Shown here: positions 9,320-41,797 of the stretch, piece by piece
Numbering within the stretch: the first letter of the stretch is position 1
Layout of the letters: every line of letters starts with the position of its first letter
Virus record (IMG/VR): IMGVR_UViG_3300049215_000130
Span: 1 to 41,797 of that record
Strand: one strand, 5' to 3'
Source of the DNA: a virus
DNA: 41,797 nt
Position numbers and translations under genes: made by a program
The notes under the pieces: generated by a model
The model's input: only the letters and a program-made list of their open reading frames with translations
Database searches by the model: none
What the model was told of the DNA's origin: nothing

Positions 9320-9566
9320 TGTTCCCCCGGATGTGTACGGTTGCACTCGCACGGTCAATCTCCATTCTGCCTTCGCAGGCAATGTTGAAATCGTCAGGCC
9401 CACCAGCGCCGCTGCGCTCAGTCCGCGAGGGGACGTGGATAACGACGTTCTTAGCCAGGTACTCCTTCGGCGGGCACACGCTCATGTCGAACACCCTCCA
9501 GGCATGGTCTGTGGTGCCGCGACCTGGCTGGCCACGGGTCTTGTTGAAACGGATGAGGAACTTCAC
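9306..9566 (-). CDS. Small hypothetical protein (86 aa, GTG start)
   Basis: Translation begins at GTG 9566, which overlaps the stop of the upstream oxygenase gene as GTGA; longer in-frame starts would lie inside that gene. The protein begins with KFLIRFNKTRGQPGRGTTDHAW and has FDMSVCPPKEYLAKNVVIHV followed by a compact beta-like tail (MEIDRASATVHIRGN). The pattern suggests a small single-domain beta protein. No family recognised. Confidence 0.6.
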   Translation of the reverse strand: MKFLIRFNKTRGQPGRGTTDHAWRVFDMSVCPPKEYLAKNVVIHVPSRTERSGAGGPDDFNIACEGRMEIDRASATVHIRGNNEGA

Positions 9567-10216
9567 AGAATCTCCGGTGCTGGGGGTTGTGGTTGCTCTG
9601 GCAGGGCAAGCAGGCACACATTGATGTGGGCCAGCAGGAAGGCTTTGTCTGAGCCATTGCGGGTCAATGCGTGCGGCACCCATGCCGGGGTCAGATACAG
9701 GTCCCCCACTCGGGGCTTGAACGACACCCTGGGGGACGCAATTTCCAGCTTCTCGCTGTTGGGCTTCACGAAAGGCTCGCTTTGCGTCTTGGCGGGCCTT
9801 GGATCGTCGAGAACGAGCCATGGTGTCTTCTCTCCTTCTGGCACTTCGAGAAAGTAAAACCCGACCATCTTGGCGGGGTCCCCATGGGAGTGCTTCTCCA
9901 TGGACGATGTCTTGTGGTGGTCCTGAAACCACGCTGCCTGGAACGCGGTCCCGAGCCCCTGGAGCACGTAGCCCTGTTTGGCCAGAATTTCCCAGGAATA
10001 TTGGAGCACAAACTTGACAAAGTGTTCAGCCTCTGGCTCGGCGTGGAAGCTCCAGGTTTGCTGGACTGGGTAGAGTTCATCCACCTCACGCTCTTTCTTG
10101 ATGAGTTCCAGATACCGCTTGGCCACCGTTCTGAGCGGTTCAACGAACTGCGGCAAGTTGATCTTGTAAATCATCGTTGGGAATAGCAGAATTTCCTCGA
10201 ACTTGGGTTGATCCAT
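9563..10216 (-). CDS. 2-oxoglutarate/Fe(II)-dependent oxygenase, cyanophage-like type
   Basis: A 217-residue protein resembling the 2OG-FeII_Oxy_5 group found in phages. A LFPTMIYKI start is followed by KHSHGDPAKMVGFYFLEVP, where His109/His111 and Asp113 are the likely metal-binding cluster. GDLYLTPAWVPHALTRNGSD supplies the distal His182, and KAFLLAHINV matches the final strand. The group hydroxylates proteins or other targets; the substrate here is unknown. The ATG at 10216 directly follows the TAA of a second oxygenase, with GGAGGT at 10221-10226 as ribosome site, so the two are translationally linked. Confidence 0.8.
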   Translation of the reverse strand: MDQPKFEEILLFPTMIYKINLPQFVEPLRTVAKRYLELIKKEREVDELYPVQQTWSFHAEPEAEHFVKFVLQYSWEILAKQGYVLQGLGTAFQAAWFQDHHKTSSMEKHSHGDPAKMVGFYFLEVPEGEKTPWLVLDDPRPAKTQSEPFVKPNSEKLEIASPRVSFKPRVGDLYLTPAWVPHALTRNGSDKAFLLAHINVCLLALPEQPQPPAPEIL

Positions 10217-10735
10217 TTAGACCTCCAGCCACGTCGTGGCTATGTACTTCGGCCCAGAGACCGGAGCCTGGCCACGATGAGCGTGGGTCCAGCCTGCCGG
10301 GAAAAGTGCCAGCTTCCCCTTGACGGGGACAATCTCGCGGGTGTAGTGAACGAACTGTGTCCGACCACCCTCCAAAACGTCATTCAGGTACCAGATGGCC
10401 ACGTACTGGCGACGGGTCAGAACGCCGTTGTCAATGTGCCAGTGGTAAAAATCTCCCGGCATGTACCGCTGGATCATGAACAGGCTCGCGTTCACCTTCC
10501 GGGGAATCATGGGGTAAAGCTTGTGGTACGCCTTCAACGCAGGCCGAAGGCTGTCAGCCATCTCCTCGTTGAGCCCCAGGGTCAGGTCCCTGGTGCGCTT
10601 CAGGTCGGTGTCCACGCCGTGGGCGGTCTTCCCTTCCTGGTGTGGCGATGACTCAAACCGGGCAATCAGAGCGTCGCACTGTGCCGCCGTTAGGGCGTTC
10701 TCCAGCTCAAAGATGAAATCCGATTGCCCGGTCAT
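10217..10735 (-). CDS. 2-oxoglutarate/Fe(II)-dependent oxygenase, prolyl-4-hydroxylase type
   Basis: A 172-residue P4Hc-like enzyme. His100 and Asp102 (HWHIDNG) form the H-x-D metal motif. YVAIWYLNDVLEGGRTQF is the conserved core with GG-T-F, FPAGWTHAHRG supplies the distal His151 or His153, and GPKYIATTW carries Lys163, the expected 2-oxoglutarate contact. Family members hydroxylate prolyl residues or other substrates with Fe(II), O2 and 2-oxoglutarate. Here it is paired with a second, distantly related oxygenase in the recombination operon. The target could be a phage or host protein or a DNA base, but nothing in the sequence decides this. Confidence 0.88.
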   Translation of the reverse strand: MTGQSDFIFELENALTAAQCDALIARFESSPHQEGKTAHGVDTDLKRTRDLTLGLNEEMADSLRPALKAYHKLYPMIPRKVNASLFMIQRYMPGDFYHWHIDNGVLTRRQYVAIWYLNDVLEGGRTQFVHYTREIVPVKGKLALFPAGWTHAHRGQAPVSGPKYIATTWLEV

Positions 10736-11990: not shown

Positions 11991-12896
11991 TTACTTGTCC
12001 GTCAGCTTTTCGAGTTCCTTGATCTTGCCCTTGGCGCGAATTGACACGCTTCCGGGGATGACCTTCGGAGACTTCTTCATGAGGTTCAAGGCCAGCTCCT
12101 GCACGAACCGCGAGTTCTTGTCGCCGTTCTGGTGCAGCTCAGTCAGGGCCTTCGTCATCTTTTCGTAATACTCCTCAGCCGCCTTGGCCCGAGCCTCAGC
12201 CAAGTCCTTCGCGTGGGCAGCTTGCATCTCGGCCTTGTCGCGGGTGAACTTGCCCTGCAACGTGGTGAGGTTGGTTTCGTAGGTGTTCTTGGCTTCCGCA
12301 ATCTTGCGGTCACACTCGATCTTCACCTTGGAAACTTCGTCGTTGGACGCGAGACGCTGCTTCTGGACAGCTTCAGCGATCCGCATTTCCTCATTTTTCT
12401 TGTGATGCTCCAGGTCTTCGACCAGTTTCTTGATCTCGATCCGCAGCTCCGTCCGCTGCTTCCATAGTCCAAACATCTTCGTCTCCTTAGCGATTGCGGG
12501 AAGCTCCACCTTGATGGCCTTCACGCGTTTTTCATATTCGACCAGTTCAGGTGACCGATCGTCCACGACGTTCGGCTTGAACTGAGCTTGTTGTAACTGT
12601 TGCATGTGAGCACCCAGACCCGCCAGGCCCTGAGCCGAGATGCCACCGTTCAACTGGTTTGAGAGGGAATTCCACTGGTTTTGCTGCATGCCCATTTGCA
12701 TCTGCTGTTGCTGGGCCATGAGCTGCTGGTGGGAATAGAGGTAGCCACAGTTCGGGCAACACGAATCCCCCATGTTGTTCTTGAAAGAACGAACATCGTA
12801 CTCAACGCGGCAGTTGCCGCATCGTACTGCGAAGGTCGAAGTTTGTCCGAGACCGTGGCTCCCCATCCCCATAATTCCCCCTAAAAGACCGTTCAT
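11991..12896 (-). CDS. Zinc-ribbon and coiled-coil protein (301 aa)
   Basis: A glycine-rich start (MNGLLGGIMGMGSHG) is followed by a four-Cys zinc ribbon (RCGNC ... CCPNCGY, residues about 26-52), then a Gln/Met-rich linker (HQQLMAQQQQMQMGMQQNQ), and from about residue 115 a long charged coiled coil that runs to near the end. The C-terminus (KSPKVIPGSVSIRAKGKIKEL) is basic. The start overlaps the stop of the ERF gene by ATGA, so it is probably co-translated with that recombinase. An elongated zinc-bound scaffold is likely; a DNA-related role is inferred from the operon. Confidence 0.6.
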   Translation of the reverse strand: MNGLLGGIMGMGSHGLGQTSTFAVRCGNCRVEYDVRSFKNNMGDSCCPNCGYLYSHQQLMAQQQQMQMGMQQNQWNSLSNQLNGGISAQGLAGLGAHMQQLQQAQFKPNVVDDRSPELVEYEKRVKAIKVELPAIAKETKMFGLWKQRTELRIEIKKLVEDLEHHKKNEEMRIAEAVQKQRLASNDEVSKVKIECDRKIAEAKNTYETNLTTLQGKFTRDKAEMQAAHAKDLAEARAKAAEEYYEKMTKALTELHQNGDKNSRFVQELALNLMKKSPKVIPGSVSIRAKGKIKELEKLTDK

Positions 12897-13612
12897 TCAC
12901 CCATGGTAATAGGGCCTGATGGAAAGTCAGCAAAATTCTGCTGGGGTGGTTCATTTTTTTCAGAACGGGATGCAGTCTTCGGTGCAGTCGGGCCAGCTCC
13001 AGTCCGAGTAGCACCCGGACGCGCCGCCCCTGTGGATGGCCTTGTGCCCGTTTCCGCAGAAGCGGCCCTCGGAGGGGGGCCAATTGGTCTCCTGGCACCG
13101 GCTCCGGGAGTCGAACCCGGCTCTGCGGTTTTGGAGACCGCATTCTGCCCGGCAGCAGCCGATCGAGGAGCCACTTGATGGGTGGTGTTCTCGGTGTCAT
13201 TGTCCTCATCCGTCGGGATGCAGAACACCTGGAACAGGGCGTACTTCAGAGCGGCACTCATCGCCTTGTTCGACGACTTGTCGCCGGAGTCCATGGCCTC
13301 GCCGACCGTGGTCACGTCGAAGCTTGAGCCGTCCTCTGTGAAGAACGTGTACTTCACAGTCAGGATGGTGTAGAGGAGCGAACCACCGCTCTTGCTCTGG
13401 CGTTCCTCGCGGGTCTTGTCCAGGACCGTCGGGGCAAAGAACACCTTGTTCTTCGTCAGCGGACCCTGGAGCGCGTTGTAAACGTCGTCGATCCCCCGGA
13501 ACATGTACCCAGCTCCCTGGGTGTTTCTGCGGGTCTTCCCGATCGCGCCGACTTCGTTCATGACCGCGCTGATACGCTCGAAAATCAGAGGTTTTTGAGG
13601 TGATGTTTGCAT
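12893..13612 (-). CDS. erf: ERF-family single-strand annealing protein
   Basis: A 239-residue protein with an unmistakable ERF core: IFERISAVMNEVGAIGK, then AGYMFRGIDDVYNALQGPL, VFFAPTVLDKTREE, YTILTVKYTFFTEDGSSF, VGEAMDSGDKSSNKAMSAA and KYALFQVFCIPT (to about residue 135). From about residue 145 on follows a Pro/Ala/Thr/Arg-rich disordered linker and a short acidic end (FADFPSGPITMGE). ERF proteins anneal single strands, here with the RecE-like nuclease encoded upstream, for repair, circularisation or concatemer formation. The ribosome site AAAGGA precedes ATG 13612. The linker DNA contains a tRNA-Trp-like sequence at 13093-13163. Confidence 0.92.
   Translation of the reverse strand: MQTSPQKPLIFERISAVMNEVGAIGKTRRNTQGAGYMFRGIDDVYNALQGPLTKNKVFFAPTVLDKTREERQSKSGGSLLYTILTVKYTFFTEDGSSFDVTTVGEAMDSGDKSSNKAMSAALKYALFQVFCIPTDEDNDTENTTHQVAPRSAAAGQNAVSKTAEPGSTPGAGARRPIGPPPRAASAETGTRPSTGAARPGATRTGAGPTAPKTASRSEKNEPPQQNFADFPSGPITMGE
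13093..13163 (-). tRNA. tRNA-Trp-like sequence (anticodon CCA) nested in the ERF gene
   Basis: Read on the minus strand the 71 bases fold as a tRNA. A 7-bp acceptor pairs ATCGGCT with AGCCGGT (one G-U pair). The anticodon arm is GCGGT-CTCCAAA-ACCGC, with CCA in the canonical C-U-NNN-A-A loop. The T arm is CCGGG-TTCGACT-CCCGG, followed by the Trp-type discriminator G and an encoded CCA. The D arm is abnormal: only CTGC-CGG-GCAG, with a 3-base loop lacking the usual GG. It lies in frame within the variable linker of the ERF gene, on the same strand. It could be a divergent tRNA, a tRNA-like regulatory element, or a tRNA 3' part left by recombination with a host tRNA gene. Confidence 0.55.
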
Positions 13613-13839
13613 TTCTTTTTTCCTTTTTTAGTCTGTTTGGTGATGCTCTGATGGATCTTTTGAGCGACCATCGCGGCACCGTTGAACTCATGGTGCGGGG
13701 ACTGGAAGTCCACGTCAACCCCTTTTTCTGCCGCGCACATGGCGGTGGCGTAAGGCCAGCCGTCTGGTCTTAAAGCCCGCCAGGTACGCCCGCAGCCACA
13801 GGCACAGGTTCTAGTCACCAAGGATAACGCCGCCGTCAT
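13585..13839 (-). CDS. Small Cys-rich (zinc-finger-like) protein
   Basis: 84 residues from ATG 13839, overlapping the RecE-like gene by 29 bases and the ERF gene by 28. A CACGCGRTW cluster followed by YATAMCAAEKG gives four Cys that could form a small zinc knuckle. The middle (DVDFQSPHHEFNGAAMVAQKIH) and the strongly basic tail (KQTKKGKKKCKHHLKN) suggest nucleic-acid binding. A later GTG overlapping the upstream stop is an alternative start. Lying between nuclease and annealase, it may help that pair, but this is only inference. Confidence 0.55.
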   Translation of the reverse strand: MTAALSLVTRTCACGCGRTWRALRPDGWPYATAMCAAEKGVDVDFQSPHHEFNGAAMVAQKIHQSITKQTKKGKKKCKHHLKNL

Positions 13840-14671
13840 GGCAGGGCCACCTTCCCGCTGCGGTACACTCCGCGTGTTTACTGAAGAGTTGGTCGATTTT
13901 TTCCATCCCTGCGGCCCGCATCTTGGGACCGACCTGGTAGAACGTGATCGCATACGGGGGCTTCTTTTCGGCGAAGATGAACACGAACTGCGCATCCGGT
14001 TGAGCCGAGAGATACCACGCCGCCTGGATGTCGTAACCCAGGCTGCGGATGGTGCGCTCGCAGTCTTCCTTGCTCACTCCGTACTCGGTGGTTTTGAGAT
14101 CAAAAATAATCCGTTCCTGACCCTCTTGCAGAGGGATAGAGACGGACGTGATCCAGTCGAATCGGGCCTTGCAGAGCACTCCGAAGTTTTCCCAGTAGTA
14201 GGACAGCTCTGGGTATCCGATGGCGTCGGAGACGTAGCTGAAGTAGGGATGGGTTCGGAGGGATTGAAGGATACCGTCGATTGTAAGCACGTCATCAGGC
14301 GCGAGGATAGACCTTCCAGGGTTGGCGTCGAGAACGGCCTGCCACAGCTCTTTTCCTGCCTTTGTTCTTCGATCAACGTCTGGACCAGCAACAAAAGTAG
14401 CTCTAAATCGCTCTGGCTCAAAGACGGCGGCATGGCATGCGCTCCCAAGTTTCATGGCGTCGGTCGTCACCTTCAGACCTGCCATCATCATCTTAGCATG
14501 CGCCGGGCTTTTCGAGTACGCTTTCAACACGGATTGTGAAAGCCCTGGACCCGCGTGATACACCGACTCTTCCACGTTAAAAAAGCCCCGGCGAGATGCC
14601 AGGGCCTTTTTCAGCTCATCCGGTGTTGAGATGAGCGGGAACTTTTGCTTCTCCTGGAACAGCGTGTTCAC
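13811..14671 (-). CDS. RecE-like PD-(D/E)XK exonuclease (DUF3799 type)
   Basis: 286 residues from GTG 14671, whose GTGA overlaps the upstream stop; longer starts would lie inside the upstream gene. The family pattern is clear: YHAGPGLSQSVLKAYSKSPAH, AMKLGSACHAAVFEPERF, YPELSYYW, then CKARFDW (Asp172), IIFDLKTTE (Asp191 and Lys193 of D-x-K) and YDIQAAWY (Gln216 motif). These are the catalytic residues of the RecE/exonuclease VIII nuclease domain. The enzyme would resect double-stranded ends to make 3' tails for the ERF protein encoded downstream, a standard nuclease-annealase pair. Confidence 0.88.
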   Translation of the reverse strand: MNTLFQEKQKFPLISTPDELKKALASRRGFFNVEESVYHAGPGLSQSVLKAYSKSPAHAKMMMAGLKVTTDAMKLGSACHAAVFEPERFRATFVAGPDVDRRTKAGKELWQAVLDANPGRSILAPDDVLTIDGILQSLRTHPYFSYVSDAIGYPELSYYWENFGVLCKARFDWITSVSIPLQEGQERIIFDLKTTEYGVSKEDCERTIRSLGYDIQAAWYLSAQPDAQFVFIFAEKKPPYAITFYQVGPKMRAAGMEKIDQLFSKHAECTAAGRWPCHDGGVILGD

Positions 14672-14949
14672 GTCTGCACCTGGAACATGAGACCGAAGAT
14701 CGGGACAATGGCAACGAGTCCATCCCTGTCGGGAGCGGATTCGAGGTACGGGGCGCCGGGGAGCCAAGTAAACCGCTTGTCGCCGTTCATCTGTTTGTTC
14801 CCGAGCTGGTAGGAGCTAATGTGGCCCATGCCCGGATGGGTCAGGCTCACTTCCGCCTTGAACCAGGTTACCGTCAGCTTCTTCGACGGCTGCGGCTTCC
14901 GTTCTTGCACGTCGCTGGGCGTCTTCTTGTCGTTGTCGTTTGCGGGCAT
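14668..14949 (-). CDS. Hypothetical protein (93 aa)
   Basis: ATG 14949 has a strong ribosome site (GAGGAG) and good codon use. The first 25 residues are charged (MPANDNDKKTPSDVQERKPQ). The folded part reads TVTWFKAEVSLTHPGMGHISSY, then RFTWLPGAPYLESAPDRDG and VAIVPIFGLMF, a probable small beta domain. The end overlaps the nuclease gene by GTGA, so the two are translationally coupled. The function is unknown. Confidence 0.6.
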   Translation of the reverse strand: MPANDNDKKTPSDVQERKPQPSKKLTVTWFKAEVSLTHPGMGHISSYQLGNKQMNGDKRFTWLPGAPYLESAPDRDGLVAIVPIFGLMFQVQT

Positions 14950-22187: not shown

Positions 22188-22265
22188 TGCAGGGTAGACT
22201 GGAGTGGTCCCAGCTTCGGATTCATAACCCGTGAGACGGTGGTTCGATTCCACCCCCTGCAACCA
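22188..22265 (+). tRNA. tRNA with CAT anticodon (Met, or Ile2 if modified)
   Basis: 78 bases. The acceptor TGCAGGG pairs fully with CCCTGCA, the T arm is GGTGG-TTCGATT-CCACC, the D arm is CTGG-AGTGGTC-CCAG, and CCA is encoded. The anticodon loop TTCATAA gives CAT. The anticodon stem TCGGA/CCCGT has only three pairs, so it may be weak. Position 1-72 is a T-A pair, against an initiator tRNA. Confidence 0.8.
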
Positions 22266-22346: not shown

Positions 22347-22422
22347 TAGGGGCTGGTGTAGTGGCTGCACATCTGCTTGTGAGGCAGAAGGCGGAAGGGT
22401 TCGATTCCCTCGCCCCTGACCA
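22347..22422 (+). tRNA. tRNA-His (GTG)
   Basis: 76 bases. The acceptor TAGGGGC pairs with GCCCCTG (one G-U). The anticodon arm TCTGC-TTGTGAG-GCAGA is perfect, with anticodon GTG, and the T loop TTCGATT lies between AGGG and CCCT. CCA is encoded. The base before position 1 is G, as tRNA-His needs, but position 73 is A rather than the usual C. Confidence 0.8.
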
Positions 22423-35696: not shown

Positions 35697-37924
35697 GTTC
35701 AGGACCATCGGCACCTCCGGCACCTCCTGGTGCTGGCAATAGCCCCGGCTACATCACTCCTGGCAGGCCCAACCAGAACGCAAGCCAGTTCGGCACCTAT
35801 GGCGCGGGCTACGCTCCCATCGGTGGCGCTCCGGTCAGTGGCGCCAACATCACTCCTTATGGCCAAGGCTTGACCCCCCAGCAGATTCAGCAAGGGCTCG
35901 GGAAGCTCAACAACGGTATGCAGCTTGCCCAGCAGTCCTACAACAAGATGGGCCAGATGGGCGGCATGTTCATGAACAACGCCCAGAATGCTGGCAACGC
36001 CGCGTACAACCCTGCGATCGGTGCATACCAGCAGGCCCTGAACCAGAACTCTCAGAACATCGGAGCCCAGCTCGCCTCACAGCGTGGATCAAGCGCAGAC
36101 CCTGGCCTCGCCGCACGTAACGTCGGCCAGGCTGGGGCTGTTGCTGCACAGAATGCGGCGGGTCAAATGTCGTCCCAGGTGGCTCAGTTCAAGGAAGCCA
36201 ACCAAGGGATGGCCGCGAACGCGTACCAGGGCCAGGGCCAGATGGCTGGGGTCTATGGGAATATCGCCAATGCCTACGCTCAGGCAGGGCTTGCGAACCA
36301 AGGGCAGATTCTCAACGCCATCGCTGCGCAGAACGCTGCCAACGTGGCCATGCAGTCCAATATCAACAGCTCGAACGTGGCGATGCAGTCGAACATCAAC
36401 AACGCCAACGTCGCCATGCAGTCCAACGTCAACGACGTGATGGCCCAGCAGATGATGAACAACAACAACCTGGGGCTCCAGCAGTACGGAATGGACCTGG
36501 GTTATAACGCCAACATCTTCAACTCCATGGAGTCGGTGTACGGTCAGCAGTCCTCGAACTACCAGAACAACGGGCTCTTGGGCTTGCCCATCCCGATTCT
36601 GTCTGACGAACGCGAGAAGAAAGACATCAAGGACGCGGGCACGAAGATCGACCGATTCCTGCGGGCTCTCGGTGGCCATGAGTACAAGTACAAAGACCCG
36701 AAGGCCAAAGGTGCGGCCAAGGGTAAGTTCGTGAGCCCGATGGCTCAGGAGCTTGAAAAGACTGAGCTGGGCAAGTCCATGGTGGTTCGTCAGCCTGACG
36801 GAACCAAGATGGTGGACTATCAGCGTGGGCTTGGCACCATCCTCGCCGCGCAAGCCCGGCTCAATGAACGTCTGGACACGATTGAAATGCAGCCTGTCCA
36901 GAAGCTCGCCAAAGGAGGTCTGGTCAAAGACGTACCGAAGTACGCCTACGGCGGACGCATTCCAGAATCGAAGCGCCGGAAGATGGCCAGTGGCGGTGGT
37001 GTTGATCCTGATACGGGTGATGATGCAGCTCTGGGAGCGATGGGAGGCGGCGGGAACATGTTCCAGCAGCAGCCCTTCAGTCTAGGAGTGGACATCGATC
37101 TCAGCAAGGGCATGAGCCTGATGCCGGGTGAGTCGGGTGGAATTCCAAGCAACAGCCCGTCGAACTCTCAAGGCCCTGCATCCTTCCTCGGGAAGATGCT
37201 CCAGGGTGGCGGGATGCAGCAAATGGGTGGCGGTGGTGGCTCGGGTGGTAATTCCACCTTCGGAAGCCTCTCTAAGATGGGGCTCGCAGCCCTTCTCGCG
37301 GCCAACAAGGGCGGCATGATTCCGAACATGGCGGGTGGTGGGCCTGTGGCTCACGCTCCGCATGTCCAGGGCATCCGTGCGCCGATGGTTCGCGCCCCCG
37401 GCATTCATCGCATGGCCCAAGGTGGAAAGCCCAAGATTCATCCGCAGCAGCCAATCCCGGTGCCTGCCGCAGCTCTGAAGCAACTGGTTCAGATGGCGCT
37501 CATTGGACGCCAAGTCATGCAGCAGGGCCAAGGTCAGCAGATGCCGCAGCAACCGATGCGTGCCGCGCAAGGCGCGATCGTGCCTGATACGGCCAACCCC
37601 TCGATGCAGCAGCAGCCGCAGGGTCAGCCTCCCATGCAGATGGGTGGGCAAGGTGCCGGGACAATGAGTCAGCAGCCCCAGATGCCTGGCCAGGTCCAAG
37701 CTCATGGCACTGGCATGCAGAACTTCGCCGTGGCAGGCAGTCCGAACCCGCAGATTGCAATGCCTTCGACTGGCTTGCCGATGGGCAACGCTCAGACGGT
37801 AGGCGGTGGCCCAATGCCTTCGCCTGGTGCCTCGGGTGGCGCAGGGATGGTCATGGGTCAGCAACCGCGTCGGCCTGGTCAGCCGTTTTTCCAGGGGGGA
37901 AGAGTAAATGGCAGGTGTTCCTAA
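35693..37924 (+). CDS. Large virion protein with mid-protein S74-type chaperone/protease domain
   Basis: 743 residues. Residues 1-60 are Pro/Gly-rich; 60-290 are helical and Gln/Asn/Ala-rich, with three 11-residue repeats (NVAMQSNINSS, NVAMQSNINNA, NVAMQSNVNDV; about 218-250). At 304-400 lies a peptidase S74-like domain: LSDEREKKDIKD (Ser304, with Lys309/310 as possible partner), HEYKYKDPKA, PMAQELEKTELG and MVDYQRGLGTILAAQARLNE. After this come about 340 Gly/Met/Gln-rich residues with KGGLVKDV, YAYGGRI and MIPNMAGGGPV repeats, typical of internal virion proteins. The S74 domain usually ends a fibre, so its position here is unusual. Confidence 0.7.
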   Translation: MSSGPSAPPAPPGAGNSPGYITPGRPNQNASQFGTYGAGYAPIGGAPVSGANITPYGQGLTPQQIQQGLGKLNNGMQLAQQSYNKMGQMGGMFMNNAQNAGNAAYNPAIGAYQQALNQNSQNIGAQLASQRGSSADPGLAARNVGQAGAVAAQNAAGQMSSQVAQFKEANQGMAANAYQGQGQMAGVYGNIANAYAQAGLANQGQILNAIAAQNAANVAMQSNINSSNVAMQSNINNANVAMQSNVNDVMAQQMMNNNNLGLQQYGMDLGYNANIFNSMESVYGQQSSNYQNNGLLGLPIPILSDEREKKDIKDAGTKIDRFLRALGGHEYKYKDPKAKGAAKGKFVSPMAQELEKTELGKSMVVRQPDGTKMVDYQRGLGTILAAQARLNERLDTIEMQPVQKLAKGGLVKDVPKYAYGGRIPESKRRKMASGGGVDPDTGDDAALGAMGGGGNMFQQQPFSLGVDIDLSKGMSLMPGESGGIPSNSPSNSQGPASFLGKMLQGGGMQQMGGGGGSGGNSTFGSLSKMGLAALLAANKGGMIPNMAGGGPVAHAPHVQGIRAPMVRAPGIHRMAQGGKPKIHPQQPIPVPAAALKQLVQMALIGRQVMQQGQGQQMPQQPMRAAQGAIVPDTANPSMQQQPQGQPPMQMGGQGAGTMSQQPQMPGQVQAHGTGMQNFAVAGSPNPQIAMPSTGLPMGNAQTVGGGPMPSPGASGGAGMVMGQQPRRPGQPFFQGGRVNGRCS

Positions 37925-40900
37925 TGCCACTGTCGGACCTGTAGCAACAGGCGCGACTGGCAACAGCACTTCAGCAGGGCCAATGCCCATGCAGCCGTCG
38001 GGGCAGATGATCGGGCCTTCGACGAACTGCCAGTTCATCCGGCAGATGCCCTATCAGATGATCCCGCAGGGCTACAACACGCAGCCCACCGAAGGGAACT
38101 ACGGGTACGGCTACTACAATGCGTCCAACCCGAACTGCTACATCGGCACGGCGGGTGTGTTCCATAACCCCGTGACCACGGTGAACAACTATCAGGGTGC
38201 CTCTCACGCGCGGGCCAACGCGGGCTGCGGCGTGGAATGCTTTGCTGCTGTGGCAACCTCGCCGGTCAATGCCTGCGGATTCGACGCTGGCGGCGTTCCG
38301 ATCACGATCGCGGCGCTCCAGAAGTACAACAACGCGGCGAGCGATGCCCAGAACTCCTGGTGCAACTGGAACAACGCGATCCACGCGTCCAACGGTCAGT
38401 GCCAGGCTGTGGCCATTTCTCAGTGGCTCGGGCTCGAAGGCGGAACTCGCGGGCTTTGTCTCCTCGCTGGCCTGCTCCATGAAGTGCCTGGTGGCCTGTG
38501 CGTGGGTGAGAACTCCGGTGGTGGCTGCAACATGCCTGGTTCTGGTCCACTCAATTACCCCTCGGGCTGCGTCGTGACGTTCGCCCATGAGATGCAGGAG
38601 ATGCTGAACCCCTGCTGCTCAGGTCCAGAAGGTCAGGATTCTTCTGACGTTCGATACAACACGCCTGGGACCTGTGCCCACTGCAACAACTTCAAGAGCT
38701 GCGGCGTTGGCTACCAGTGCTTTGACACGGCTTTCACCGCGTACTGGGGCACGGATTACGGGAACAGCCCAAACGCCTGGCAGTACGCCAAGACTCCGTC
38801 CTATGCTGGCGGTCAACTTCTTGCTCCTGGTGGTGGTGGACCACTTCCCGGCCAGCCTGGTGGGCCTGGTGGTCCGACCGTGGGTCCGCCCTGCATCCAC
38901 GTTCTCCCTGGCTGCGTCACGGTTCATCCCTATGTCATCCCGCAGGCAAAGCCCGCGCATTCCTGCACCCAGAAGGGTCCTAGCAGAAAGCGTCTCCAAG
39001 AGCCGATCTGCACGCCGGTCTCGCCGTATCCTCTCGCGCATGGTGGATTCACCTGCCTGAACCCGTACCAGCAGATGGCCACGGGTGGGAAGATGATCGA
39101 CCCGGTTTCCGCGAAGAAGTGCATCTGCTGCTCTGCCCACGGCAGGGCTGCGGCACCTCCTCCAACGACTCCTGGCCCGAAGATTTGCGTGCCGTCACCT
39201 CCAATCTGCATCACCATTCCGCCTCCGACTGGCCCGGCTCCTCAGCCTGAGCCGAACATCGTGCCTTTCGTCTCGGTGAGCCCTGCGTATCCGTATCGCG
39301 GAACGGTCTGCGCCAACCAAATCACGTATCCGGGTGGTGAAACCTGGAACTTCCCTCTTGGCCAGCCTGAAGTCCCTGGTGGACCAGGGATTCCTACGCC
39401 TCCTGGCTGCGCTCCACCTCCGGCGCCGACCCCGAAGCCAAACCCTGGGACAGGCAATCCGGTCATCCCGATCACGAACAACCCCGGCATCTGCGGGATT
39501 CAGTGTGTCAATGGAACCTGGGTGCTCATCGGACCTTGTGGCCCGATCAATAGCCCCATCTGCACGGGCAACCCGAACAACCCGCCGACTCCGAGCCCGC
39601 ATCCTCAGCCTGGCTGTGGCCCGTGCAACCCCTGCCATCCCTGCAATCCCTGTGGCCCGCAGCCTAACCCTTGTGGCCCGCAGCCGCAGCCTTGCACGCC
39701 GACCTGTCCACCGGCTCCCGTGAGCCCGTTCGGGGTACGCTCGCCGTTCATGCCCTGCTACATGGGCGTGAGCCCTTGGCCTTCGCCCCAGAACGTCTTT
39801 GGTGGCGCTCTGCCAACGACCCCGTGGCTCCCAGGCGGTAAGGTGGACAACGGCTTGGGTCCAAGCCCGGCAATGCCCGCCTCGCCTGTGTACGGCCCAG
39901 CTCCGGCAGACAACGCCATCTATCAGGGTCCGCATATCCCGGCCCCCACGATGCCGTTTGCCTCGCCAAGCTCGACCACGACCACGACGACCACGGGAAT
40001 CTGTGCTAACGGCTTCCCGACCATCGGTCAGTGGGATAGGCGCGAAGATCAGCAGATGCTGAATCACAACTACTCCCAGGGTGGAAACTGCGTCTGGGGA
40101 CTGGCTGCGAACCTCCAGGCTGGGAACATCGCGTTCCCGACCGTGACTCACGTCTGCACCCAGACTTCACCTGGCCTCGCCCCTGTGACGCCTGGACAGT
40201 GCGGGAATCTCGCGGCTTACCCTGGCTCTGACAAGTGGGTGGGCACGAACCCGAACCCCTACATCCACGGCTGTGCTCCGGCTCCGTGTGGCCCAAGCCC
40301 TTGTGGCCCTGGACCTGGTGGCGGCGATGGCGACTGTGACTGGGACGATCAGGACATGTGCTCTGCCCGGATGCAGCAGCAGTCTCAGTGGCATCATGGT
40401 GGACACGGCGGGCCTGGTGGCCAGCCTGTTTGCTACTTCCAACAGAATGGATCGTTCACTGGCCCGGCTTGCTTCGGTGGCAATCAGTGGGGCAACCAGG
40501 GAGTCTGGGGCGGATGGGGCAACCCTTGGGGTCCGACGGGCGAACCTGTGGAAGACCCAGCGGAAGCTTTCATCAACTCGCACTGGTGCCAGTGGCTCGC
40601 GGCGGACATCGCCAAGCAACAGGGCCTGCACCCAGGGACGACCACGACCTGCACCCAGACGGGAGCCATCCCTTGCTGGCATCCGCCTGACTGGAACGCG
40701 GGTAACAACCCCGCTTTCACGAACACCTCAAGCCCGGTGGGTCAGGGTCAATTCCCGACCTGGCCCGGTGGCGTCACGCCTGGCGGTGGCACGATCACCA
40801 CGGGTGGAGATGCCCAACAGGCCACGCCGTTCCAGAACGGTGACCTGTATGAGCCCGGCTTTGAAACCGTGGGCGCTTGCTTCGTAGGCAACCCGTGGCA

Positions 40901-41312
40901 ACCCTCGAACCTCGCGCTGGATAACCCCGGCGCGATCGACATGGGCCTGGCTGGCTTCCAGATTCCGGCTCCAGCCCCTGCACCTGCCCCGGCTCCAAGC
41001 CCAAGCCCAACCCCTGGTGGTGGTGGCTGGGGACACCATGCCCACGGCGGACCCGTCGGGAAGCTAGTGGACGTGGAACTGTCTCCAGGCGAGAATGTAA
41101 TCATGCCGTGTGGCGAAAAGCAGAGAGTTCCGGGTCAGGCTGAGTACAGCGGTGACACCGTGAAGAATGACACCTTTCGGACGAAGCTCCCCCCAGGAGC
41201 CATCGTCGTTCCTCGAACTGTCTCGGGCAAGGCAGACAAGGAAAGGAGATTTGTGGCCGCGATTCAGGCTCAAAAATCGCCTGCTGAGGCTCTGAGGAGG
41301 GCTCATGGGTAA
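37908..41312 (+). CDS. Giant Cys/Pro/Gly-rich virion protein (1134 aa)
   Basis: The start ATG 37908 follows a G-run and overlaps the previous gene by 17 bases. Residues 100-310 contain many Cys (AGCGVECFAA, NACGFDAGG, CSGPEGQ, CAHCNNF) and a HEMQEMLNPCC segment that recalls an H-E-x-x-E metal motif, though without the second His. Residues about 310-680 are Pro/Gly/Cys-rich, including NPCHPCNPCGPQPNPCG-type repeats. Further on are Gly/Trp-rich sections (GNQGVWGGWGNPWGP). The last 85 residues (VDVELSPGENVIMPCGEK, then KLPPGAIVVPR) match a C-terminal module shared by large phage virion proteins. A disulfide-stabilised, surface- or envelope-penetrating role is inferred. Confidence 0.65.
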   Translation: MAGVPNATVGPVATGATGNSTSAGPMPMQPSGQMIGPSTNCQFIRQMPYQMIPQGYNTQPTEGNYGYGYYNASNPNCYIGTAGVFHNPVTTVNNYQGASHARANAGCGVECFAAVATSPVNACGFDAGGVPITIAALQKYNNAASDAQNSWCNWNNAIHASNGQCQAVAISQWLGLEGGTRGLCLLAGLLHEVPGGLCVGENSGGGCNMPGSGPLNYPSGCVVTFAHEMQEMLNPCCSGPEGQDSSDVRYNTPGTCAHCNNFKSCGVGYQCFDTAFTAYWGTDYGNSPNAWQYAKTPSYAGGQLLAPGGGGPLPGQPGGPGGPTVGPPCIHVLPGCVTVHPYVIPQAKPAHSCTQKGPSRKRLQEPICTPVSPYPLAHGGFTCLNPYQQMATGGKMIDPVSAKKCICCSAHGRAAAPPPTTPGPKICVPSPPICITIPPPTGPAPQPEPNIVPFVSVSPAYPYRGTVCANQITYPGGETWNFPLGQPEVPGGPGIPTPPGCAPPPAPTPKPNPGTGNPVIPITNNPGICGIQCVNGTWVLIGPCGPINSPICTGNPNNPPTPSPHPQPGCGPCNPCHPCNPCGPQPNPCGPQPQPCTPTCPPAPVSPFGVRSPFMPCYMGVSPWPSPQNVFGGALPTTPWLPGGKVDNGLGPSPAMPASPVYGPAPADNAIYQGPHIPAPTMPFASPSSTTTTTTTGICANGFPTIGQWDRREDQQMLNHNYSQGGNCVWGLAANLQAGNIAFPTVTHVCTQTSPGLAPVTPGQCGNLAAYPGSDKWVGTNPNPYIHGCAPAPCGPSPCGPGPGGGDGDCDWDDQDMCSARMQQQSQWHHGGHGGPGGQPVCYFQQNGSFTGPACFGGNQWGNQGVWGGWGNPWGPTGEPVEDPAEAFINSHWCQWLAADIAKQQGLHPGTTTTCTQTGAIPCWHPPDWNAGNNPAFTNTSSPVGQGQFPTWPGGVTPGGGTITTGGDAQQATPFQNGDLYEPGFETVGACFVGNPWQPSNLALDNPGAIDMGLAGFQIPAPAPAPAPAPSPSPTPGGGGWGHHAHGGPVGKLVDVELSPGENVIMPCGEKQRVPGQAEYSGDTVKNDTFRTKLPPGAIVVPRTVSGKADKERRFVAAIQAQKSPAEALRRAHG

Positions 41313-41797
41313 ACTGTGGATGCCGATGAACAACTTTAAGAAGGTCTCCGAGGACGAAAAGAGCGCGACGCTCCAGCATCCTGATGGACACCAAATTACC
41401 TTGGCCAAGAACATCTTGTCCGACCACATGCGGCAACAGCTCGCGGCTCTCCCTATGCACAAAGCCAAGGGTGGCAAGATCAAGAGAATGGACGACGGCG
41501 GCATGAGCTGCGGTGCAGATGGCCAGGTTTACCAGGGCTCACAGCCCACGGGACAACCCAACCCTATGCCGCAGAATGCTCCGGCTCAGGCTCCGCAGGG
41601 TCCGAGCAATCCCCAGATTCCTCAGCGTCAGATGCAGCCCGTACAGCACCCGACTGCACAGGGAATCCCTGGCATGTTCAAAGGCCGCAGTGCCATGTCC
41701 CTGATGAATCAGGGAAACCAGGAGCAACTGGGTGGCGCCGCTCAGGCCATGAAAGCCCAGCAGGGCTATGCACAGGCAGCGAACCCAATCCTCCAGC
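41305..41797 (+). CDS. Start of the end-spanning virion protein gene
   Basis: ATG 41305 (ribosome site GAGGAGG; overlaps the previous gene by eight bases) starts MGKLWMPMNNFKKVSEDEKS, then TLQHPDGHQITLAKNILSDH, MHKAKGGKIKRMDDGG and a Gln/Pro-rich linker. At 41566 it enters the frame of the protein read from base 9, so it continues into 1-1355 in the circular genome (535 residues in total). The PDGH motif followed by AKGGxIKRMxDGG is common at the start of internal or ejection-type phage proteins. Confidence 0.8.
   Translation, partial: MGKLWMPMNNFKKVSEDEKSATLQHPDGHQITLAKNILSDHMRQQLAALPMHKAKGGKIKRMDDGGMSCGADGQVYQGSQPTGQPNPMPQNAPAQAPQGPSNPQIPQRQMQPVQHPTAQGIPGMFKGRSAMSLMNQGNQEQLGGAAQAMKAQQGYAQAANPILQ
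41558..41797. repeat. Terminal redundancy, right copy
   Basis: Repeats bases 1-240 with one difference (C at 41685 for T at 128). See the left copy for interpretation. Confidence 0.95.

Follow-up and report, generated by a model that had tools for sequence, protein, structure and literature searches.

Genes for tRNA-Trp are carried by several phages, among them Arthrobacter phage Isolde, Bradyrhizobium phage BDU-MI-1 and the IMG/VR contigs L173-L191. The tRNA-Trp of Isolde lies between genes and has a full D arm, and that of BDU-MI-1 is annotated as a pseudogene and lies outside annotated genes. The 3' parts of tRNAs are also classic att cores, and the record of Paracoccus phage Shpa (L192) opens with a 3' tRNA-Trp part of 50 nt (positions 1-50), which is unannotated and probably the att site of that phage. 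Outside phages, some mitochondrial tRNAs have a D arm that is reduced or missing. Finally, proteins of the ERF superfamily (PF04404, the family of phage P22 Erf) have a conserved core, an adjoining exonuclease partner and a variable tail.

Here, we analyzed a window of 41,797 nt, positions 1 to 41,797 of the IMG/VR virus record IMGVR_UViG_3300049215_000130, in which a 71-nt tRNA-Trp(CCA) sequence (13093-13163, minus strand) lies within the open reading frame of an ERF gene (12893-13612, minus strand). From the anticodon arm to the CCA, this element is nearly identical to the phage tRNA-Trp genes cited above, and it shares with BDU-MI-1 the A1-U72 pair with the AUCGG...CCGGUGCCA end. However, unlike the Isolde gene it sits inside an ORF and has a broken D arm, and unlike the BDU-MI-1 gene it is not located outside annotated genes. 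As with the tRNA-derived attP core at the end of the Shpa record, a tRNA-Trp 3' part is found within a phage genome, but here there is no integrase, the acceptor is full and the site is inside a recombination gene. The ERF gene has the core and the adjoining exonuclease of its superfamily, except that its core is parted from its probable tail by the tRNA and a frame change. The element resembles mitochondrial tRNAs with reduced D arms in that acceptor/T and anticodon arms are intact and the D arm is reduced, whereas it is phage-borne and its function is only putative. We propose, with a probability of about 0.58, that a phage-type tRNA-Trp was inserted fairly recently into the ERF gene, shifting its frame, and is now a (pseudo)gene damaged in its D arm. 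Among the titles and abstracts returned by literature searches, none describes a phage coding gene with a tRNA inside it, which does not imply that such cases are absent.

Genome context of the locus

The window carries a direct terminal repeat of 240 bp (1-240 and 41558-41797), with 239 of the 240 positions identical; the sole mismatch, T/C at repeat position 128, may be strain variation. The genome, circularly permuted, is probably contained in full in the contig, and neither a tyrosine integrase nor a serine resolvase was found in this apparently complete genome. Next door to ERF lies the gene of its partner, an Exonuclease VIII-like protein (PDDEXK, DUF3799; 13811-14674, minus strand; PF12684, E = 2.4e-25; PHROG 412). 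Two ordinary phage tRNA genes called by ARAGORN, tRNA-Met (22188-22265, plus strand) and tRNA-His (22347-22422, plus strand), were available as controls within the genome. With the Rfam model RF00005, whose cut-off is 29 bits, the tRNA-His scores 41.6 bits, and the 78-nt tRNA-Met, at 25.7 bits, falls below the cut-off. Elsewhere, the window contains an adjacent pair of 2OG-Fe(II) oxygenase genes (9563-10735, minus strand; PF13759 and PF13640), whose products may modify DNA or protein, and a gene (37908-41312) for a 1134-residue low-complexity protein, rich in Pro, Gly and Cys, with no Pfam match.

A tRNA-Trp homologue with a broken D arm

ARAGORN applied to the whole window called a tRNA-Trp(CCA) at exactly 13163..13093 on the minus strand. 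In this direction the element reads ATCGGCT-GCTGCCGGGCAGAAT-GCGGTCTCCAAAACCGC-AGAG-CCGGGTTCGACTCCCGG-AGCCGGT-G-CCA. The 7-bp acceptor (AUCGGCU/AGCCGGU) includes one U.G pair, the anticodon arm is complete, with a CUCCAAA loop and a CCA anticodon, the T arm is complete as well (CCGGG-UUCGACU-CCCGG, fitting TTCRANY), and G73 and the CCA are encoded in the DNA. The original prediction of 71 bases combining such an acceptor, a CCA anticodon arm, a T arm, G73 and CCA was thus reproduced by the sequence and by ARAGORN at the same coordinates. A blastn search of the 71 nt against 2.3 Gb of phage DNA retrieved 3' portions of tRNA-Trp genes (86% identity over 49 nt, E = 6e-7). We also scanned the window, filters off, with our own covariance model, made of nine aligned phage tRNA-Trp genes and the cloverleaf, with the element excluded. 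The element obtained 57.6 bits (E = 1.2e-15), a score from a model that is biased towards it in the anticodon and T arms, as the nine sequences were picked by a pattern taken from these arms. The tRNA-His (50.3 bits) and the tRNA-Met (39.9 bits) both scored lower, and the next match reached 12.2 bits.

Chance hairpins as the source of the element are ruled out by this score together with simulations: ARAGORN made one call, unrelated, in 10 Mb of order-2 sequence with the trinucleotide make-up of the window, and three calls, none resembling the element, in 12 Mb simulated from the local composition. Judged by its sequence, 13093-13163 is therefore a homologue of tRNA-Trp and no chance likeness. 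This agrees with the earlier view of a very divergent tRNA or a fossil of a tRNA-Trp, and makes a tRNA mimic a reading that is not needed. The structural expectation was borne out by the tRNA-Trp covariance score, but not by RF00005, whose cut-off the element does not reach because its D arm is broken, nor by the folding energy, whose z-score against shuffles (-1.53) is unremarkable taken alone. Two other identities were discarded. The top cmscan match, to the selenocysteine tRNA model RF01852, has 31.6 bits for a cut-off of 47, and the CCA anticodon, the 7-bp acceptor and the short variable loop fit Trp; the match to a Tymovirus tRNA-like structure (13.8 bits, E = 3.4) is at the level of chance.

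The covariance alignment locates the damage in the D arm. Position 8 carries G in place of U, A14 has been lost and two of the four D-stem pairs are formed, the arm being 3-4 nt short (3 nt when compared with the 74-nt class). In addition, position 48 is a G, so that the usual pyrimidine, the Levitt partner Y48, is lost. With U8, A14, part of the D stem and Y48 missing, little is left of the contacts that hold the core of an L-shaped tRNA together, and the element does not have the set of features of a functional canonical tRNA (U8, A14, a D stem of 3-4 bp and Y48). The main Trp identity elements, namely the CCA anticodon, G73, A1-U72 and G5-C68, are kept. Altogether, the most likely status of the element is that of a tRNA pseudogene of recent origin, which would be neither charged nor used.

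The coding frame changes at the end of the tRNA

The ERF core (13164-13612, minus strand; residues 1-150, ending in THQVAPR) is that of a single-strand annealing protein. PF04404 matches residues 12-153 with 76.6 bits (E = 2.6e-21) for a cut-off of 25 bits, which places the protein in the ERF superfamily, the core matches PHROG 155 (Erf-like annealing protein), and ERF is about 49% identical to phage ERFs. With a codon model trained on other genes of the same phage, the core scores +96 bits in frame 0. As annotated, this frame stays open right through the tRNA, from which 24 residues are read, and then continues for about 65 residues. The tRNA codons themselves are weakly coding-like in frame 0, with a positive score. 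The stretch behind them (ARRPIGPPPRAAS...ITMGE; 12893-13092, minus strand) is probably an out-of-frame extension, as its synonymous score (-0.138) and GC3 (0.45) are both typical of wrong frames, and it totals -9.6 bits.

By contrast, the coding signal behind the tRNA is found in the -1 frame, where (R)ETNWPPSEGRFCGNGHKAIHRGGASGCYSDWSWPDCTEDCIPF followed by a stop (12960-13092, minus strand) forms a tail rich in Cys, His and Trp with a GC3 of 0.93. Its synonymous-codon score (0.334) exceeds the 99th percentile obtained with windows in wrong frames (0.22 and 0.18) and is within the range of real frames, and its combined codon score is attained by 1-2% of wrong-frame windows. When the switch point was left floating, the top single change from frame 0 to the tail frame fell at 13094, one base from the 3' end of the tRNA. 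Exact removal of the 71 nt joins the THQVAPR core in frame to ETNWPPSEGRFCGNGHKAIHRGGASGCYSDWSWPDCTEDCIPF and its stop, giving a 193-aa product similar in length to ERF relatives; such an agreement of frames has 1-in-3 odds of being accidental. No ATG, GTG or TTG occurs in the tail frame past the last upstream stop, therefore the tail is no ordinary independent gene, and homologue searches with it detected none. Codon statistics and frame agreement point to this tail as probably the former C-terminus of ERF, and we propose as the probable annotation of the locus an ERF core, an inserted tRNA-Trp and a displaced ERF tail. The element and the frame change are known from one contig, in which an indel error is possible.

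The suggestion that the tRNA is nested in frame in the ERF linker is thus right in that frame 0 is open, but by codon statistics the coding signal moves to the -1 frame behind the tRNA. On the same statistics, the idea of a tRNA shared with a functional protein linker gives way to that of an insertion interrupting ERF. The end of frame 0 was also considered. An ATGA overlap (12896/12893) joins the ERF stop to an alternative ATG (12896) of the next gene (11991-12872, minus strand, function not assigned), and such translational coupling could be taken as proof of a real frame-0 tail. We rejected this argument, and regard the overlap as saying little in favour of the frame-0 end, since there is a better start downstream: a Shine-Dalgarno-like AGGGGG (12882-12877) is followed after 4 nt by ATG 12872, the probable real start.

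ERF relatives and source of the tRNA

The original prediction proposed a comparison of the ERF linker in related phages. None of the best 80 ERF relatives among the viral contigs has a tRNA inside the ERF gene (two have one elsewhere in the ERF locus), and the ERF tails of these 80 differ strongly. Searches of the viral contigs with exact peptides of ERF, of the neighbouring gene and of the displaced tail turned up no relative whose site is empty. Identity to the closest ERF cores is no higher than about 60%, and relatives found through the capsid, up to about 75% identity, are without this ERF. One of these (L244) has a different annealing-type gene next to its exonuclease, and ARAGORN found no tRNA nested in a gene in this record (L244 and L054, one record). 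In another relative, L245, the gene behind the exonuclease (1482-1928) has a zinc-ribbon-like start, MSCVSNGHKIPVGGRCSGCKK, that loosely resembles CGNGHKAIHRGGASGC of the displaced tail. Among 186 distinct tRNAs in the surveyed DNA, the element is the one that lies deep within a conserved gene; the three others that were flagged are all in ORFs of contig L182, with starts 161-246 nt upstream.

The strict pattern of the 3' half of the element is absent from 84,980 bacterial species genomes. A looser pattern matched three genome contigs versus 19 viral contigs. Given these two results, a phage tRNA appears a likelier source than a host tRNA-Trp gene, and the recombination with a host tRNA-Trp evoked earlier becomes the less likely origin.

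Insertion model and alternative explanations

We suggest that a phage-type tRNA-Trp gene was inserted just behind the conserved core of ERF, at or next to 13163/13093, and this insertion would be the most likely origin of the present arrangement. It would have severed the C-terminal tail from the core. As 71 is not divisible by 3, the tail once joined to the core would now be in the -1 frame, and translation would run through 24 tRNA-encoded residues into about 65 residues that are out of frame. The core presumably still works, given how much tails vary among ERFs. The inserted tRNA-Trp would be decaying in its D arm, and its function is most likely lost.

The main rival, which we nevertheless hold to be unlikely, is that the Cys/His tail is the remnant of a separate small gene, to which an intervening ordinary tRNA gene and ERF were fused by a deletion. 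In its favour are the gene behind the exonuclease in L245, with its zinc-ribbon-like start MSCVSNGHKIPVGGRCSGC, and the lack of an ERF homologue of the tail. Against it, the tail has no start codon and falls in frame with the ERF core upon exact removal of the tRNA.

Next comes the doubtful case of a functional nested tRNA-Trp with a minimal D arm, which RNase P and 3' nucleases would release from the ERF mRNA, at the cost of the ERF message or as a limit on ERF. The losses of U8, A14 and D-stem pairs, the G at 48 and a score under the RF00005 cut-off argue against it, even though the element has kept its acceptor, T arm and anticodon arm intact, together with G73, A1-U72, G5-C68 and CCA, and outscores both the tRNA-His and the tRNA-Met of this phage with our model. 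RNase P accepts acceptor/T-arm minihelices, a tolerance that would also suit such processing.

A more improbable explanation takes the tRNA region for an ERF linker that is translated, the Cys/His tail being reached by a -1 frameshift at C CCC CCT (13079-13073), or the contig being one C short in this run, in which case the gene would run on unbroken across the tRNA. The sequence and a motif scan reveal a candidate, speculative -1 slippery site (13073-13093, minus strand), in which AGGAG (13093-13089) is separated by a 9-nt spacer from the heptamer C CCC CCT (13079-13073). Slippage by -1 at this heptamer leads into precisely the coding-like frame, and the positive frame-0 score of the tRNA codons is as expected for a linker. 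However, codon usage switches at 13094, ahead of the heptamer, the frame-0 codons AGG AGA CCA are disfavoured in this phage, and shuffled sequences are almost as structured as the RNA behind the tRNA (z = -1.13).

Very doubtful is a combination in which a tRNA-Trp with a minimal D arm works inside the message of the recombination gene, and RNase P excision or a -1 frameshift determines whether a tRNA, a short ERF or the full ERF including the Cys/His tail is made; if true, one transcript would couple tRNA supply and recombination. Finally, an attP of a temperate phage integrating into a host tRNA-Trp gene is largely refuted and highly improbable, since, despite the classic role of tRNA 3' parts as att cores and the 50 nt of tRNA-Trp 3' part that open the Shpa record, there is neither an integrase in the apparently complete genome nor a match to the strict 3'-half pattern among the bacterial genomes, and the 5' acceptor strand is present too.

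Phages often gain and lose tRNA genes, and the landing of one in a conserved coding gene before either part has decayed would be unusual. An insertion of a tRNA-Trp into ERF would illustrate how tRNA genes can pass from one phage genome to another when no integrase is involved, and would offer a case for following the fate of a message that carries an RNase P-like substrate.
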